Assembly (NCBI GenBank): GCA_028819215.1
Contig: JAPPMG010000007.1
Span: 1-64,000, forward strand
From: Bryobacterales bacterium
GTDB lineage: Bacteria; Acidobacteriota; Terriglobia; Bryobacterales; UBA6623
Reading direction: 5' to 3'
DNA: 64,000 bases
Each line of letters starts with the position of its first letter. Positions within the stretch are counted from its first letter, which is position 1. Below, one piece after another: positions 6,301 through 13,543 of the stretch. The position numbers and the translations under genes were made by a program. The notes beneath the pieces are model-generated. The model saw only the letters and a program-made list of their open reading frames with translations, was not told the origin of the DNA and made no database searches.

Positions 6301-7392
6301 ATGTCCGGCCTGACTCCTTGGCAGGCGGTCGCCGCATTCCTGACGCCGACCGCCCTCTTTGCCATCCTCCTCACCCTGCACATCGTCCTCCCCGCCCGTC
6401 GCGTCGAAGGCTACGCCCGCGTTACACCAAGCCGGTACCGCCTCAACGGTCTCGCCGTCTTCATCTGCGCCCTCGCTATCTGGTGGTTTGAGCTGACCTC
6501 CGCCCCGCTCGGCTGGCTGTGGCTGGCGAAATGGCACGCGCTCGCCGGAGCGGTGGCATTGAGCGTCGTCCTCACAGTGTGGATGGTCCTCCGCGCACCC
6601 GCCGACGACCGCAGCCCGCTGGTGCAGTGGATCGAAGGCCGTTCCCGCAACGTCCACTTTCGCGGCGACATCGACGCCAAGATGTTCATGTACGTCTACG
6701 GCGGCACCTACCTCGCGCTGAACGCTGTCTCGAGCGCCGCGTACCACTATGGCGAATACGGCCCGGCGGCGAACGCCGGCGTGTTCCTGCACGCGGCGAT
6801 GTGGGTGTGGTTCGTGACGGACTATTTCTGCTTTGAGCGCGTTCAGCTCTTCACTTTCGACATCATCGAGGAACGCGTCGGCTTCAAGCTCATCGTCGGC
6901 TGCATCGCCGTCTATCCCTGCCTGTATCCGATCGCGCTGTGGGGAACGGCCGGTCTGGCGAGACCCGACATCGATCCGTCGCGGGACGCTCTCTGGCTTG
7001 GAGGTTCGGCGGCGGTGTTTCTGCTCGGCTGGGTGATCACGCGCGGCGCCAACCTCCAGAAGTATGTGTTCAAGAGGTTCCCCGAGCGTGCGTTTCTCGG
7101 GCTCATCAGACCGGTCACGGTCACGGACGGGGAACGCAAGATCCTCTGCAGCGGGTACTGGGGAGCCGCCCGGCATGTGAACTACACGGGTGAAATCCTA
7201 GAGGCGCTCGGAATGGCGCTGGCACTCGGACACTTCACGAACATCTGGGCCTGGATCTATTTCGTCTACCTCACGATCTTCTTCGTCATCCGCGACCGTA
7301 TCGACGACGGCCGGTGCGCCCGCAAGTATGGAGAACTGTGGGAGCAATACCGGGGCAGGGTTCGTCATCGTCTGATCCCCGGGGTTTACTGA
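6301..7392 (+). CDS. ERG4/ERG24-family sterol reductase-like membrane protein
   Basis: A 363-residue multi-pass membrane protein. The C-terminal third matches the signature of eukaryotic sterol C14- and C7-reductases (ERG24, lamin-B-receptor C-terminus, DHCR7). It has a [SC]GYWG element followed by RHVNYTGEILEALG, then a membrane span, then RDRIDDGRCARKYGELW and a terminal YRGRVRHRLIPGVY. The middle segment DYFCFERVQLFTFDIIEE also follows the family pattern. These motifs form the NADPH and sterol pocket. Bacterial members are known but scarce. The protein is shorter than the usual ~430 residues, mainly at the N-terminus. Whether it reduces the C14, C7 or C24 double bond cannot be decided. It heads a group of genes with steroid-type signatures (7.5-11.2 kb). 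Confidence 0.8.
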   Translation: MSGLTPWQAVAAFLTPTALFAILLTLHIVLPARRVEGYARVTPSRYRLNGLAVFICALAIWWFELTSAPLGWLWLAKWHALAGAVALSVVLTVWMVLRAPADDRSPLVQWIEGRSRNVHFRGDIDAKMFMYVYGGTYLALNAVSSAAYHYGEYGPAANAGVFLHAAMWVWFVTDYFCFERVQLFTFDIIEERVGFKLIVGCIAVYPCLYPIALWGTAGLARPDIDPSRDALWLGGSAAVFLLGWVITRGANLQKYVFKRFPERAFLGLIRPVTVTDGERKILCSGYWGAARHVNYTGEILEALGMALALGHFTNIWAWIYFVYLTIFFVIRDRIDDGRCARKYGELWEQYRGRVRHRLIPGVY

Positions 7393-7545
7393 GCGCGGTT
7401 CGACCCTGAGGCGCCAATTCGCGGCGCCGAACGTTGGTAGTCACAGTCGAAGAAAGCGCCGTCGTGGCCAGCTAGTGTTGCCGTCGAGCCCTGCCGAGTT
7501 CGTGCGTGAATCCGACAGCGTGAGCATTGGGGCTGTCAGTCAGCG

Positions 7546-8595
7546 TCACGAAGACTCGGAGACTGCCAGCTCCGGATAGAACTGCCGGCAGTACCGGCGA
7601 TACGCCCCAATCGGGCCGTCGGCCCGGCAAAGCCGGGGCTGGTGGCAGTACCGCATCCGTTCCCAGATAACGACGTCCTGCTGGACATCTCGCCTCTGCT
7701 GCGACAGCAGAATTTGGTTCATCACTCTGTGCCGCAGGCTAACGGGAAGGAAGCGCAGGCCCATGATGGGCTTGCGGGGCTTGTGCATCCGCCGCACCTG
7801 GTTGGCCAGCACTAACTCTACGTGCTCGCTATCGACGGGTGTTGACAGCACCCAATATCTCACGCGCATGTCAATGGACGTCTCGTGGATTTCGACGAAG
7901 GAGTAGCCCAGCCCATAGACGTGAGTGTCAGCCGAGACTTCGTGCACCACGTCGATGCCAGCGACCCTTCGAACACGCCTGAATTCGAAGCGGCTCCGCA
8001 AATAGGCACCCTCGACCGACAACGAACCCACCGGAGTCACGTTGCTGTAGCCGTGTACGTATGCCAAGTGCCCGAAATCCACGGAGTTTTCCGCCAATTG
8101 CTGGACGTGCCCCGGAAATCGGAGGGTTCGGAATCCCAGCTTGCACCATTCGGCTCCGGGGAGCGGTCCGTCCGGCAGGTGCCACTGCGGTGGACGACCG
8201 CCACTTCCCCACCAGCCAAAGACCATCCCGAGGATCTCCTTTGTCTCGTAGAGTTTCAGCTTCGCGCCTCTCGGGGCAGGGGCATTCGGAGTGGCGACGC
8301 ATTGCCCGGTTGCATCGAACTCGAATCCGTGAAAGGGACAGACTAGGCAGCCGTCACGGACCTTGCCGCCAACGGAGGGCCCTAGGTGCGAGCCCAAATG
8401 CGGACACTTCGCGTCGGCCACGCAGATACGGCCCTCTGCGTCGCACCAGACGATGATCTCCTCGCCCACCCAAGTCCTTTCGATCAGTTTCTCTCGCAGG
8501 ATTGACTCGCGACTGGCGATGAAATACCAGCCCTCGGGGAAAGAGGGCAGTTCATCAATGGGACCCGGCGATCTCCCGTTGGGCTTCGTGATCAT
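7546..8595 (-). CDS. Rieske non-heme iron oxygenase, sterol desaturase/demethylase-like
   Basis: The ATG at 8595 gives 349 residues; an upstream in-frame TTG at 8640 would add 15. A Rieske [2Fe-2S] site is clear (C64-P-H66 and C86-P-F-H89). The mononuclear iron site reads N170-x2-D173-x2-H176-x4-H181, preceded by a GHVQQLAEN segment like that of the cholesterol 7-desaturases DAF-36/Neverland. The bacterial sterol C4-demethylase SdmA is also a Rieske oxygenase. Its position between an ERG24-like reductase and a DUF1295 protein supports a steroid substrate, but the family also covers other ring hydroxylases such as KshA, and no dedicated reductase is adjacent. It is transcribed opposite to its neighbours. 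Fold is certain; substrate is inferred. Confidence 0.8.
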   Translation of the reverse strand: MITKPNGRSPGPIDELPSFPEGWYFIASRESILREKLIERTWVGEEIIVWCDAEGRICVADAKCPHLGSHLGPSVGGKVRDGCLVCPFHGFEFDATGQCVATPNAPAPRGAKLKLYETKEILGMVFGWWGSGGRPPQWHLPDGPLPGAEWCKLGFRTLRFPGHVQQLAENSVDFGHLAYVHGYSNVTPVGSLSVEGAYLRSRFEFRRVRRVAGIDVVHEVSADTHVYGLGYSFVEIHETSIDMRVRYWVLSTPVDSEHVELVLANQVRRMHKPRKPIMGLRFLPVSLRHRVMNQILLSQQRRDVQQDVVIWERMRYCHQPRLCRADGPIGAYRRYCRQFYPELAVSESS

Positions 8596-8820
8596 CTGTC
8601 CAGAGTCTGTCTCAGGCTGCGGGTCAGCGGCGACCGGCAACTGGTTGGCACGGCGATCTCTCGACCGGCTTCCCGGATGCCAAGGTCAAGCACAGCAACA
8701 ATATAGCGGTATTTCGCCCCAACCGCGCCCTGGCCCGCTCACGCCCGCATCGCGGCGGCCAGGGCCGACTGGTCTTGACGAGACACACGGGCATGCTCTA
8801 GCGTTACGAGCGCAATCCCG

Positions 8821-9663
8821 ATGCCCGGACTCGACCTGTTCAGCCATCCGCTCTCCGGCCAGCCGTACGGTAGCGCGCTGGAACTATGCCTAGTTCTCGT
8901 GGTGCTGGCTTGGGTCGCGACGCTCGTCACCGGCGACTGTTGTGAGTGGATGGACCGCCTGTGGTCCCTGTGCCCGCCGGTGTACTGCCTGTTGGTCGCC
9001 GTCGAGGTTGGATTCGACGTGGCGCGCGTCAACCTCATGACGGCACTGGTGATCCTCTGGGGCGCGAGGCTCACCTACAACTTCGCCCGCAAGGGCGGTT
9101 TCCGGAAAGGCGGCGCGGACTACCGCTGGGGCGTCGTGAAGGCGAGAATCGGCCCGACGAAGTTCCTGTGGCTGAACATCGCCTTCGTCGCGCCGGGCCA
9201 GTTGCTGCTCATGTGGCTGTTCACCTCGCCTGTGCATCAGGCGTGGGTTTGGCGGGACCAGCCTCTCGGCTGGCTCGATGGGTTTTCCGCAGTGCTCTTC
9301 CTGGTGTGTTTCGCCGGTGAGTTGATCGGCGACGAGCAAATGTGGAAGTTCCAGCAGGAGAAGAGGCGCAGGATCGCAGCCGGCGAAGAAGTCGTGCAGC
9401 CATTCATCGTCACGGGCCTGTTTCGTTACGCACGCCATCCGTCGTATCTGTGCGAAATCGGGATGTGGTTCGCCTTCTGTCTCTTTGCCGTGTCGGCGTC
9501 AAGCGACTGGTTCCACTGGACCGGGCTCGGCGTGGTTCTGCTTGCTGCGCAGTTCATCGGCGTGATCCGCATGACGGAGGAGATATCCGCGGGGAAGTAC
9601 CCGACCTATGCCGAGTACCGCGCGCGGACGCCAATAGTGCCTCTGCCGGGGCTGCGCAGGTAG
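8821..9663 (+). CDS. DUF1295 / steroid 5-alpha-reductase-like membrane protein
   Basis: This 280-residue integral membrane protein has about six or seven spans and the DUF1295 pattern. That includes an early LTYNFARKGGFRKGGADYRWG segment, the C-terminal TGLFRYARHPSYLCEIGMW, and a final E-x-K-Y-x-x-Y-x-x-Y-R motif (SAGKYPTYAEYRART). The family belongs to the superfamily that includes 3-oxo-5-alpha-steroid 4-dehydrogenases and isoprenylcysteine methyltransferases, and its C-terminal RHPxY box resembles that of the sterol reductases. It probably reduces or modifies a lipid or sterol using NADPH. The context supports a steroid-related role. The start ATG has no obvious ribosome site. The exact reaction is unknown. 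Confidence 0.8.
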   Translation: MPGLDLFSHPLSGQPYGSALELCLVLVVLAWVATLVTGDCCEWMDRLWSLCPPVYCLLVAVEVGFDVARVNLMTALVILWGARLTYNFARKGGFRKGGADYRWGVVKARIGPTKFLWLNIAFVAPGQLLLMWLFTSPVHQAWVWRDQPLGWLDGFSAVLFLVCFAGELIGDEQMWKFQQEKRRRIAAGEEVVQPFIVTGLFRYARHPSYLCEIGMWFAFCLFAVSASSDWFHWTGLGVVLLAAQFIGVIRMTEEISAGKYPTYAEYRARTPIVPLPGLRR

Positions 9664-9868
9664 GGCTCGCCGCCTCTGGAGCCGGCGTACCGAGCGCATT
9701 GCTAGCTGTCCAATATCGTTTCGAGCCTTGAACGGCAGGTTTCGTCTTGGCCGGGCTGGCGCAGCGTTGGGGCCCGCAGGGAGGCGTTGGGGACATCTCA
9801 ATGACACAGCGCGGTTAGACGGGTGCGGTGCGGAGAGTCCGCGCTAGGCTATCCGCTAGGAATAAGAG

Positions 9869-10600
9869 ATGCCCGAAAATCGCCTTCATCGAGCGCCGTT
9901 CGAACCAAGCGCGCACCAGCCGGGCCTGACAATCCCGACGGCACTGATCGCGGCGCTGGTTGTCACGATTCTGGCCCTTCTCGGCATCGGTACGCGCTAC
10001 TACGCCGACGGGGACCTAAACGCCATCTATTGCCTTCTCAGCCTGTTCTTCTCGGCCAACCTGCTGATCTGCTATTGGGAGGTGTGTCTGTTTCTCCGAC
10101 CAGACCATGTCGAAATGCGAACTAGGTATTGGCGCGAGAGGAGCAGTATCACGGGCCGGACACCGGCTAGGGAGTTCCTCCTCGCAAGGGTCCCCTTGAC
10201 CCGGATACTGTCGCCGACTCTATGGGCTGATGTCTGGGCGGCCTACTCCCACTACGACGGATCCTATGCGGACCGCCGGACGTTCGGATACAACGCGGAT
10301 ATCGCCAACGGCATGGTGACGCCAGTTCCAACACTCATCCTGTACGCGGCCTACACGTTCGAGCTCCTGCCTGCCGTCCTTGCGGGAATTCTCGGGGTCA
10401 TGCTGTTCTGGCAATGGACGTACGTGACCTCGGTCTACTGGGCCAGCTTCTTCGTGGCCAACCGGCATGCCCGAATCAGCCGACGCGAGGTCTACACCTA
10501 TATCTGTGCGATCAATTCTCCCTGGGTGCTGTGCGCACTCCTTGGGTTGTACGTCTCCGTTCGCCTGATTCTTGACGGCAACTACAGCGTTCTGGGTTAG
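9869..10600 (+). CDS. Putative EBP/EXPERA-like membrane protein (possible sterol delta8-delta7 isomerase)
   Basis: A 243-residue protein with about five membrane spans. I compared it from memory with human EBP (emopamil-binding protein, sterol delta8-delta7 isomerase). A charged glutamate sits in a membrane span (CYWEV, E71), as EBP has E80. A Y-x3-D-x2-Y stretch (residues 126-133) precedes an FxxNxD span, matching EBP's YAKGDSRY and the following catalytic span. The last span has N216-x2-W219, as EBP has N193-x2-W196. EBP's second catalytic glutamate (E122) appears replaced by N142 or D144, and H76 is not kept. The call is therefore tentative, but the location inside a sterol-type cluster makes it plausible. 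AGGA lies 8 nt before the ATG. Otherwise it would be an unknown membrane protein. Confidence 0.5.
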   Translation: MPENRLHRAPFEPSAHQPGLTIPTALIAALVVTILALLGIGTRYYADGDLNAIYCLLSLFFSANLLICYWEVCLFLRPDHVEMRTRYWRERSSITGRTPAREFLLARVPLTRILSPTLWADVWAAYSHYDGSYADRRTFGYNADIANGMVTPVPTLILYAAYTFELLPAVLAGILGVMLFWQWTYVTSVYWASFFVANRHARISRREVYTYICAINSPWVLCALLGLYVSVRLILDGNYSVLG

Positions 10601-10755
10601 ACAGCCACGCCAAACTCCGCCAGACACCTGAGAAGATCCTGGGACGGTTCGCCGATTGCTACAAGGTGAAAGCAGGGACATAGCCGCATCGAAACTGCTC
10701 TGGGAGCAATCGGACGGATGGGTCGAGACTCTCCCAAAGACCGGCGGTCAGGACG

Positions 10756-11241
10756 ATGAACAGATTTGAAGTAGATACTCCACGCATACGGATCGAAGCA
10801 CCGATCGGCTTCGTCTGGGAGATCCTCACAGACGTTGAGAAATACGGCGAGTGGAATCGGTTCACGCCGCAGGCCCGGACGGATTTCACAATCGGTTCGC
10901 CTGCGCATCTGCTGGTCAGGATGGGGAAGGCAAAGATGCAGATTACCGAAACCGTCTGCGCATTCGAATACCCCCGCCTCATCGCTTGGCGAAAGACATT
11001 CGGGGCACGCTGGCTCTTGCACGCGGTGCGAGAGCAACACCTAGAGACTGTGAGCGAGACGACGTGTCAGTACCACAACACGGACCGATTGACGGGTATG
11101 CTCGCGCCGCTGGTGTTTCTATGCTTCGGCGGCTATATGCGTCGCGGATTCACCGATGTGGGCGACGGATTGAGGCGTTACTCGGAAGCGAAATTCACAA
11201 CAACGAGACCGGGCGCGGACCTGGGCAGTTTGCCGTCCTGA
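10756..11241 (+). CDS. SRPBCC/START-like lipid-binding protein
   Basis: 161 residues with the helix-grip (Bet v1/START) pattern. There is an opening strand (IRIEAPIGFVWEILTDVEKYGEWNRF), the central beta sheet with a W-[RK]-x-T turn, and a long C-terminal helix (GGYMRRGFTDVGDGLRRYSE). These small soluble proteins bind hydrophobic ligands such as lipids, sterols or polyketides, and some are cyclases. It ends the steroid-type group, 155 bp after the EBP-like gene, so a carrier role for the cluster's substrate is a reasonable guess. AGGA precedes the ATG at good spacing. Ligand and catalysis are unknown. Confidence 0.75.
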   Translation: MNRFEVDTPRIRIEAPIGFVWEILTDVEKYGEWNRFTPQARTDFTIGSPAHLLVRMGKAKMQITETVCAFEYPRLIAWRKTFGARWLLHAVREQHLETVSETTCQYHNTDRLTGMLAPLVFLCFGGYMRRGFTDVGDGLRRYSEAKFTTTRPGADLGSLPS

Positions 11242-11403
11242 TCCTCGTTCCGGCAATACCCCGCGGTCAAGCCACGTTCTCCGTTCAGCCGTTGGGCTCC
11301 GCCTCTCTAGGCAGATCGCTCTGTGGATCAGTAGGGGAGTTACATCCAATAGTGACGAAGTCGGCCCGGCAACCGACTACTCGTTCTTGACCCATCTCAG
11401 AGA

Positions 11404-11477
11404 GCGGCCCAACCAGGATTCGAATCTGCCACGTTCCACTGTGACGCCGTTGCTCCAGCCATCTGAGCTACGGGGCT
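11404..11477 (-). pseudogene. Degenerate tRNA-like sequence
   Basis: On the minus strand a perfect D-arm sequence (GTAGCTCAGATGGCTGGAGCA) and a T loop (ATTCGAATC) are spaced as in a tRNA, flanked by GC-rich segments that pair only partly (GCAGCCC with GGGCCGC, one mismatch, with two extra bases before the D arm). The bases in anticodon-loop position (GTCACAG) would read CAC (Val), but the anticodon stem does not pair and the first T-stem pair is A-C. No CCA is encoded. It looks like a decayed tRNA carried on the island rather than a working gene. Confidence 0.45.
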
Positions 11478-11587
11478 GCCCTCAATTTCGTCAGATGCAG
11501 GCGGAATCGTATCGTTGGCGCATAAACGTCGAGAACTCTCACGCCTATGTCCTAGCCGTGTTTGATCGCTAGCCGAGGGAGTAAGAG

Positions 11588-11749
11588 TTGAAGACCGTTA
11601 GTGCTGAAGAGGCGTTCGATTTCTATTTCGACCAGATCGCACCGGGAGCAGGTATCTACGCCTTGTCCAGGGTTCAGGCGAACTGCGGACAGGAACTGCC
11701 GTGGAAGCTAGGTCACGAGTGGCTTGAAGAGGCTGGAAAGCTCGGATAG
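11588..11749 (+). CDS. Possible small protein (53 aa, TTG start)
   Basis: A TTG preceded by GAGGGAGTAAGAG (strong ribosome site, ~8 nt spacing) opens a 53-codon frame ending TAG. The peptide begins LKTVSAEEAFDFYFDQ and ends HEWLEEAGKLG; it is acidic, with no membrane span. I do not recognise it. It could be a truncated gene. The surrounding 11242-11904 otherwise holds only the tRNA remnant. Confidence 0.35.
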   Translation: MKTVSAEEAFDFYFDQIAPGAGIYALSRVQANCGQELPWKLGHEWLEEAGKLG

Positions 11750-11904
11750 CGCATCACGCGGAATCATGCGTGTTCTTGCTGTCTGCATCTAGAAGCAAGA
11801 AATGCTCTCACGGCACAACCATCCTCCCGCCATAATCGCCGTAGTGTCCGTGCGGTCGCGTTCCGCTCACTCGCGCGGCGGCCCATGCGGGCTAGAATAC
11901 TAGC

Positions 11905-12159
11905 ATGCCTCAGAAGCAACAGGTCGAATTTCAGGGGATTCGGCGCAACGCCATCCGCGTAGAGGTCGAGGAGACCACGGAAAGATGGTGCAGTGCCAAG
12001 CTTAGCGACGGTTCAATCATCAAACTGAAAGCCATCATCACCGATGTCGGTCGGCTCGAGAATACGTTTGACAATAACGGAGACCCCGTTTACGTCGTCA
12101 AGTCTTCGAACGTCTTGGCTGTCGAAGCAAACGAGGACCTGCGGCAGAAGGTCCACTGA
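11905..12159 (+). CDS. Small conserved-looking hypothetical protein (84 aa)
   Basis: This 84-residue, soluble, charged protein is rich in short beta-strand-like segments (IRVEVEETTERWCSAKLSD, then IIKLKAIITDVGRLE, then YVVKSSNVLAVEA), suggesting a small SH3-like barrel. I do not recognise a family. The ATG is 6 nt after TAGAAT (11893-11898) with no Shine-Dalgarno, so the transcript may be leaderless. It lies 8 bp ahead of the next gene and probably forms an operon with it and the DUF7689-like gene. Codon use and GC are lower than in flanking chromosomal genes, in keeping with the island. Confidence 0.6.
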   Translation: MPQKQQVEFQGIRRNAIRVEVEETTERWCSAKLSDGSIIKLKAIITDVGRLENTFDNNGDPVYVVKSSNVLAVEANEDLRQKVH

Positions 12160-12167
12160 GGTCAAAG

Positions 12168-12665
12168 ATGGAGACATTGCAGCATTCCACGATCAATTTG
12201 GTGCAGGGAGTGCCGTACATTCCCGGAAGCGTCCTTACCACGTTGGTTTCCTATCAGGATTCCGAGAAGGAGTCCGTCCCGATCTTTTCAGAGTCGCCCG
12301 ACTCCGTTATAGGACGTTCCAACGACTTGCCGGTCTCTACGGGAAATTCCGCTAGCTGGCAGGACATGTCTCAGGAACAAGTGGTCGGCATCAAGTTTCG
12401 GACGCTGACTGAGCAATGGCGGGAACAGCGCGGTTTCAGTTCTTCTCAGAGCGAGATCGAGGCATGCCCTGCGTACCACGCCCTGCTGGCGATGGGGGAT
12501 TCCGTGATTCCCTTGATTATGGAGGAACTTGAAAAGGGAGCCAAGGATCACTGGTTCCGAATATTGGAACTGGTGTCCTCAGAGCAGCCCGTCCGATACG
12601 AGGATCGCGGGCACTATGCGAAAATGAGAACGGCTTGGCTCGATTGGTGGAAAACGCGCTCTTAG
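12168..12665 (+). CDS. Hypothetical protein (165 aa), middle gene of a three-gene group
   Basis: The N-terminal ~70 residues are polar and low in predicted structure (an address-label-like SYQDSEKESVPIFSESPDS stretch). The C-terminal half has the compact pattern HALLAMGDSVIPLIMEELEKG, then HWFRILELVS, then MRTAWLDWW, which resembles a short HEAT-like helical module. I recall this C-terminal pattern as recurrent beside DUF7689-type proteins, which matches the next gene. The ATG follows GTCAAAG, a weak ribosome site, 8 nt after the previous stop. The 3' end overlaps the next frame by 31 bp. Function is unknown. Confidence 0.6.
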   Translation: METLQHSTINLVQGVPYIPGSVLTTLVSYQDSEKESVPIFSESPDSVIGRSNDLPVSTGNSASWQDMSQEQVVGIKFRTLTEQWREQRGFSSSQSEIEACPAYHALLAMGDSVIPLIMEELEKGAKDHWFRILELVSSEQPVRYEDRGHYAKMRTAWLDWWKTRS

Positions 12666-13150
12666 GCATCCCAAGATTCAGAGCAGCCTTCCCAAAACTT
12701 TCAACGAGTAACTTCGAGGTTACGAGTCCGGAGGACATAGCCTACAATTGCATCGCTTGGGCTGCCGAAGATGATTCCCGTAAATGGTGGCCCATAGATG
12801 GGTCGATGTCCCATTACTGGCCAGACGGGGTTAGGTACTCCGAAGACCCGGAGGCATTTATAGAAGCGTACGCCACAATCGGGTATTCGCGGTGCCAGAA
12901 CGGAGATCTAGAGCCTCACCTAGAGAAGGTAGCGCTGTACGGTAAGGAGGATCTTCTTGGGCGTATGAAGATCAAGCATGCCGCCCGTCAGCAACCGTCC
13001 GGTAGATGGACCAGCAAACTCGGTGACTTCCAAGATATTGCGCATTCCATACCGGACGATGTAGGAGGTGGGGACTACGGCGAAGTGGTTTGCTACCTCT
13101 CACGTCTGAGGCAGGGAATGTCAGATAAACCGTGTAAGCAGCAGGGATGA
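12635..13150 (+). CDS. DUF7689-like protein (171 aa)
   Basis: The sequence has a series of tight motifs: FPKLSTSNFEVTSPED, YNCIAWAA, WWP...YWP, a GYSRC...LE...KVALYG stretch, HAARQQPSGRWTSKLG and DIAHSIPDDV..GDYGEV. This string of His, Cys, Trp and Asp-rich boxes is the pattern I associate with DUF7689. The conserved C/H/D residues would fit an enzyme, possibly a cysteine hydrolase or toxin-type domain, but none has been shown. The ATG used overlaps the previous gene; a start some 8-10 codons later is possible. No immunity or antitoxin gene can be identified with confidence among its neighbours. Confidence 0.65.
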   Translation: MARLVENALLGIPRFRAAFPKLSTSNFEVTSPEDIAYNCIAWAAEDDSRKWWPIDGSMSHYWPDGVRYSEDPEAFIEAYATIGYSRCQNGDLEPHLEKVALYGKEDLLGRMKIKHAARQQPSGRWTSKLGDFQDIAHSIPDDVGGGDYGEVVCYLSRLRQGMSDKPCKQQG

Positions 13151-13343
13151 CAACGAGCACACTCCGCACATCGTTGTGTTCTCTCGATCGGATGCTCGCG
13201 GAGCCACCGTCTAGATCCAGCAGCCCGTCGACCTCCCAGAGGGCAAGGCCGTGTTCAACTCCTTCGATGAGATCATCCGCATCGCGAGACGCGAGCTTGC
13301 AGACCACTTGGAGCAAGCCGCCTCACAGCTACGCTCTCGCTGA
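13146..13343 (+). pseudogene. Remnant of a small gene with an internal stop
   Basis: One frame reads DNEHTPHIVVFSRSDARGATV, then TAG (13212-13214), then IQQPVDLPEGKAVFNSFDE followed by a helical tail (IIRIARRELADHLEQAA) to a TGA at 13341. The protein-like composition on both sides of the stop suggests an inactivated gene rather than chance. It has no clear start and I do not recognise the family. It lies just inside the right end of the island. The remaining ~100 bp to the repeat show nothing. Confidence 0.3.
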
Positions 13344-13451
13344 ATGTTGGGCTATCGCCACTCTTGCAAATAGTTCCCTTTGTTATGGTCTTTAGGTGAA
13401 ATATGGTGCGATCGTACGGGATGCGGGCGGACGGTGAGAGTCAGCTCCGAT

Positions 13452-13467
13452 TGGGGACGCCAGTTTC
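13452..13467 (+). repeat. Right direct repeat (att-like)
   Basis: TGGGGACGCCAGTTTC matches the tRNA-Glu 3' end (4728-4743) at 15 of 16 positions in the same orientation. The bases ahead (CCGAT) also resemble the tRNA (CCGC). No other part of a tRNA is present here, as expected for the distal att site of a tRNA-integrated element. Confidence 0.6.
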
Positions 13468-13543
13468 CGTCGCTGCCACAGGTTCGCCCAAGCCGCGGAC
13501 GCTTCGCTAGGCTCTCCCGGCCTTCATCAGCCAGTATTCGGCC

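Follow-up and report, generated by a model that had tools for sequence, protein, structure and literature searches.

A Bryobacterales gene block likely to edit ring double bonds of acquired sterols

Sterol gene clusters of sponge symbionts, and their spread, are already known. In symbionts of Ircinia sponges, clusters of steroid genes (CSGs) carry lanosterol synthase together with CYP51 and ERG24, and the available text of that report describes sterol genes in symbionts of many phyla together with evidence for horizontal transfer (PMC9531527). The msb locus of a gammaproteobacterial symbiont of Melophlus encodes core synthesis with a fused squalene epoxidase/cyclase, and the main text of its description has no occurrence of the term isomerase (PMC7074536). 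Late tailoring of bacterial sterols by eukaryote-like enzymes is described for the cholesterol pathway of Enhygromyxa salina, with homologues for nearly every step (PMC10202945). Who makes and who edits the sterols of sponges is an open question, bearing on the use of steranes as animal biomarkers (PMC10070321). Here we analyse a block of five genes in a 64,000-nucleotide stretch of DNA from a Bryobacterales bacterium (positions 1 to 64,000 of contig JAPPMG010000007.1, hereafter the window, whose numbering is used throughout). The block (6301..11241) encodes homologues of an ERG4/ERG24-family sterol reductase and of a KshA-type Rieske oxygenase, a DUF1295 membrane protein, a 243-residue EXPERA/EBP-like protein and an SRPBCC-like protein (Table 1), and is likely an editor of ring double bonds in sterols acquired from the host or from neighbouring microbes.

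The original prediction of five sterol-tailoring genes within about 5 kb holds for the layout, with all five open reading frames (ORFs) in place, and Pfam bears out the ERG4_ERG24, Rieske and DUF1295 identities. At least three of the five genes belong to families with steroid-linked domains. Unlike the CSGs (PMC9531527, as far as its available text goes), the block has neither cyclase nor CYP51, its ERG24 is of another type and its Rieske protein is of the KshA rather than the SdmA type; no cyclase or CYP51 of the CSG type was found in the genome either. It also differs from E. salina (PMC10202945, available text), which makes its own sterols from dispersed genes.

The source of the sterols was considered by searching the whole window genome (5.86 Mb, 98.98% complete). 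It has no match to the squalene epoxidase family PF08491, and its best match to the P450 of a complete sterol operon (locus L009, described below), sought as a CYP51, is 31% identical and lies in an apparent GPP34-P450 protein. Among four cyclase matches the only full-length one (657 aa) has a DTDDTA stretch that we take to be hopene-type, two more pass the cut-off as short stretches of long frames (41 and 30 bits) and the fourth falls below it; this search found no full-length oxidosqualene cyclase. Nor was a squalene-epoxidase match obtained in the three full-block relatives (G264-G266). Because squalene epoxidase, CYP51 and full-length oxidosqualene cyclase are lacking, sterols from outside the cell are favoured. 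The original prediction had seen neither squalene monooxygenase nor oxidosqualene cyclase in the block and had offered either completion of a pathway encoded elsewhere or use of sterols from a host or the environment; the second option is the one preferred here. Under the first, the block would finish a full de novo pathway with the early steps encoded at other sites in the genome, as might be expected from the EXPERA-like relatives that lie beside squalene epoxidase-oxidosqualene cyclase (SE-OSC) operons in other phyla and from operon-type ERG24, SdmA and SdmB genes in a genome of the same genus (G010, locus L138). Given the missing matches listed above in a nearly complete genome and in the three full-block relatives, we consider this improbable. 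Given the L138 genes (contig C72), part of the genus may be capable of sterol synthesis.

Acquired sterols would be isomerised by the 243-residue protein. Its predicted fold resembles that of EBP far more than unrelated folds, and of 11 residues needed for EBP activity seven are identical and one is conservatively replaced (mapped by spacing, with E80 and H76 assigned by helix position and judgement), a likeness to human EBP and the EXPERA superfamily as set out in the available text of PMC4263179. Among eight distant relatives, three score 8.8 to 11.7 bits on PF05241 (EXPERA; cut-off 25.7).

A pattern scan of a genome collection (84,980 species) gave 77 loci with close relatives of this protein, 76 of them from metagenome-assembled genomes. 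These relatives span ten phyla, with labels for Acidobacteriota, Nitrospirota, Alpha- and Gammaproteobacteria, Dadabacteria, Nitrospinota, Latescibacterota, Binatota, Gemmatimonadota, Rhodothermales and Acidimicrobiales, and with some loci lacking a phylum label. In a tree of the 77 rows the Acidobacteriota label must change three times or more on branches with good support, a pattern that fits horizontal transfer, with losses as the alternative. Samples of the SB06 series presumably come from Ircinia ramosa. The sample codes APA, RHO, COS and CAR (16 of the 77 loci) fit four sponge species named in the available text of PMC8163846. The window bacterium itself likely lives in sponges.

The flanks of these loci (up to 8 kb, some of them short) were searched with nine genes from L009 and the five from the window, and 31 of the 77 contain another queried gene: SE-OSC in 18, sterol methyltransferase in 18, a CYP51-like gene in 17, operon-type ERG24 in 15, SdmA in 14 and SdmB in six. 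By Pfam, L009 encodes an 1146-aa squalene epoxidase and cyclase protein, a P450, an ERG24, a Rieske/VanA_C protein, an epimerase-type short-chain dehydrogenase (SDR) and two proteins that each have a C-terminal domain of sterol methyltransferases; its EXPERA and SE-OSC genes are immediate neighbours and converge. This operon resembles the CSGs (PMC9531527) and the msb locus (PMC7074536), the latter also in its fused epoxidase/cyclase, insofar as their available texts describe them, and EXPERA-like relatives thus stand beside operons of a known kind. The expectation that relatives would be neighbours rather than scattered is therefore borne out in part: the full block was seen in close kin only, yet in other phyla complete sterol operons have the EXPERA-like gene close by. 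In three Latescibacterota loci (L051, L055 and L056) a sterol methyltransferase gene adjoins EXPERA in a flank that has no SE-OSC, and in a fourth (L053:14558-15715) the flank holds a window-type ERG24.

The best solved relative of the ERG24-like protein is a Delta(14)-sterol reductase. Motif counts against 44 intermediate and 7 operon-type rows show shared residues in its C-terminal part, which we take to be the NADPH end, and a G-D motif present in six of the seven operon-type rows is G-C in 68 of 68 rows of the window-type group. We infer from these motifs that NADPH reduction may have been kept and the substrate position changed. Since the substrate may differ accordingly, and since a hopene-type cyclase is encoded in the genome, the block could serve to modify hopanoids or some other bacterial triterpenoid instead of sterols. 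Sterols are, though, the substrates of the functionally characterised ERG24 proteins, and genes for SE-OSC, CYP51 and sterol methyltransferase occur in the neighbourhood of the EXPERA-like gene in several phyla. The EBP proteins of known function also have sterols as substrates (PMC4263179, available text), and we rate a hopanoid substrate as unlikely.

The Rieske protein passes the cut-offs of both the Rieske (61 bits) and KshA_C (85 bits) families, and KshA sequences are the top three among its solved relatives. Its start is likelier the ATG at 8595, because the nearest listed relative has 349 aa. In the 364-aa numbering, C79/H81/C101/H104 and H191/H196/D322 align with KshA, and we take them to be the ligands of the Rieske centre and of the iron site, respectively. 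The grouping with non-steroid oxygenases that would have spoken against a sterol role is thus not seen at the level of domains and solved relatives, the extent of this comparison. Of the two likenesses originally proposed, that to DAF-36/Neverland cholesterol 7-desaturases is putative and the SdmA-like identity falls away: the protein scores 34.4 bits on the NCBIfam SdmA model NF052579 (cut-off 600), and the SdmA-type protein of L009 is a different one, of the VanA_C type. The domain pair and ligands shared with the 3-ketosteroid 9-alpha-hydroxylase KshA, and its place among the best solved relatives, raise the alternative that the block opens steroid breakdown, with ring hydroxylation followed by ring cleavage. 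A single marker was tested, the ring-cleavage dioxygenase model TIGR03213, and it gives no sign of breakdown: on it the window genome scores 62.8 bits (cut-off 366), a level also hit in 5 of 14 control genomes. With no recognised breakdown gene in the block, this alternative appears very unlikely.

Proteins fusing GPP34 and P450 are encoded in the window genome at L099:6851-8869 (contig C55, by Pfam) and L146:847-2853 (contig C15, judged by eye). The C55 copy stands beside the second KshA-type Rieske gene of the genome and has relatives in L009; the literature matches listed for such fusions contain nothing on point.

The EXPERA and Rieske genes also occur together. Across 247 genomes of the window's phylum, EXPERA (E<=1e-20) is present in 13 and Rieske (E<=1e-100) in the identical 13, from 4 of 141 genera, so that presence agrees in all 247; with genera as the unit, the probability of this agreement by chance is 6e-8. 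This is a further respect in which the relatives are not scattered. In 49 EXPERA-bearing genomes (from 50 of the 77 loci, the other 27 being outside the sample), 36 have the Rieske gene and 18 a squalene-epoxidase match (E<=1e-40), with Rieske found in 25 of the 31 genomes without such a match and in 11 of the 18 with one. Within the bacterial family of the window, 10 of 18 genomes have the Rieske family (E<=1e-60) and 9 of 18 an ERG24 match (E<=1e-10).

All five genes recur, with order and strands unchanged, in three of the 77 fetched loci (L006-L008), and this conserved arrangement exceeds chance. The order there is ERG24 (+), Rieske (-), DUF1295 (+), EXPERA (+), DUF1214 (+), sulfotransferase (+), SDR (+), SDR (+) and SRPBCC (+), with four additional genes between EXPERA and SRPBCC (L006:8885-13435) that the window does not have. 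DNA homology between the window and its relatives ends at 10613-10638 and restarts at 10665-10668, about 4.6 kb onward in L131-L133, and the window retains the end of the second SDR, which is intact in close relatives. Because of this break, the SDR remnant and the nine genes in L006-L008, we read the five-gene form as a shortened nine-gene block. A search of the rest of the window genome, made for the sulfotransferase alone among the four lost genes, gave a best match of 30% identity; the presence of this gene in close relatives suggests that these may form sulfated sterols.

Several observations weigh against a shared role in sterol editing. The 243-residue protein matches no Pfam family at E<=1, PF05241 included; no EBP came up when PDB sequences were searched by sequence and by profile, using the protein and its family; and the Foldseek E-values of its predicted structure against EBP are just 0.06 and 0.31. 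In comparison with human EBP (PMC4263179, available text), the activity residues H76, R110 and T125 are changed and the stretch from the first acidic residue to the W-Y-D motif is 31 residues longer. The EBP/EXPERA-like label has the predicted fold and most EBP activity residues in its favour, and the lack of an EXPERA match, which was to count against it, holds at the level of Pfam. The DUF1295 protein scores 14.3 bits on Steroid_dh (PF02544), well under the cut-off of 22.6, which leaves it outside the steroid 5-alpha-reductase family; it has no solved relatives at E<=5 in a sequence search, and a structure model built from six closely related sequences (pLDDT 44) is unusable. The START-like label given to the SRPBCC protein is approached rather than reached, with Polyketide_cyc2 just below its cut-off and AHSA1 and Polyketide_cyc below theirs too. 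The full block belongs to a single group of close kin, 46 of the 77 EXPERA loci have no queried sterol gene in their flanks (some of which are short), EXPERA and Rieske are not close together in the 12 other genomes of the 13, and the second Rieske copy of the window genome adjoins the P450-GPP34 gene, away from sterol genes. Shared sponge life could also be the source of part of the EXPERA-Rieske co-occurrence.

Taken further, these points would suggest that the genes are adjacent by history, each with a separate sponge-linked lipid function. Two genomes of the same genus (G013 and G010), in which the 20 kb fetched contain only ERG24 adjoining DUF1295, agree with such a history. The presence agreement across 247 genomes and the steroid-linked domains of most of the block argue otherwise, and we give this explanation a low probability. 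The sterol-modification reading as such is supported by gene families and context, and we infer the substrates, step order, products and action in one pathway.

For sterol editing, the Rieske enzyme would oxidise or desaturate the sterol nucleus, and the EXPERA-like protein would shift a ring-B double bond (delta-8/delta-7 type) through protonation and deprotonation. NADPH-dependent reduction of one nuclear double bond would fall to the ERG24-like enzyme, the DUF1295 protein may reduce a 3-oxo-steroid or another nuclear bond, and the SRPBCC protein could hold or carry the sterol. In close relatives the two SDRs would act on the 3-hydroxyl/3-oxo step and the sulfotransferase would sulfate the product; in the window organism, where the block has lost those genes, an unsulfated product may be handed on.

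In the literature searched, with supplements and subscription papers outside its scope, we found no bacterial EXPERA-like family tied to sponge-symbiont sterol clusters, no co-occurrence of EXPERA-like and KshA-type Rieske genes and no tailoring block without a cyclase. A bolder proposal, possible though we would lean against it at present, is that a new bacterial branch of EBP-like isomerases, passed among sponge symbionts in ten phyla and partnered with the KshA-type Rieske enzyme, lets bacteria that make no sterols rewrite ring double bonds of sterols from the sponge or from other symbionts. If so, sponge sterol chemistry would be a community pathway, and some unsaturation patterns of sponge sterols and fossil steranes would be bacterial edits. 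Known symbiont clusters account for core synthesis and side-chain methylation; the window block points to a separate ring-editing module, with no core pathway seen. It also supplies a directly testable isomerase candidate, one that is overlooked in annotation for want of a Pfam model that detects it.

Table 1. Features of the block, in window numbering.
Feature	Position	Strand	Details
ERG4/ERG24-family sterol reductase homologue	6301..7392	+	363 aa; PF01222 129 bits (cut-off 27)
KshA-type Rieske oxygenase homologue	7546..8640	-	364 aa (TTG) or 349 aa (ATG at 8595); PF00355 and PF19298
DUF1295 membrane protein, reductase-like superfamily	8821..9663	+	280 aa; PF06966 130 bits
EXPERA/EBP-like protein, candidate sterol isomerase	9869..10600	+	243 aa
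Deletion scar: 3' end (28 codons plus stop) of a short-chain dehydrogenase gene	10683..10769	+	From comparison to L006-L008 and L131-L133 at the DNA and protein level
SRPBCC-like protein, candidate lipid binder	10756..11241	+	161 aa; Polyketide_cyc2 26.4 bits (cut-off 27.4); same neighbour in L006-L008

One further genome carries a second EXPERA copy (G223:C35:111411-111857) broken by two stops, with an intact copy on another contig. Just beyond the block, homology with L131 ends at 11215 and restarts at 13478, and the window segment without a counterpart there (11216-13477) contains a DUF7689 gene and an unassigned 165-aa ORF.

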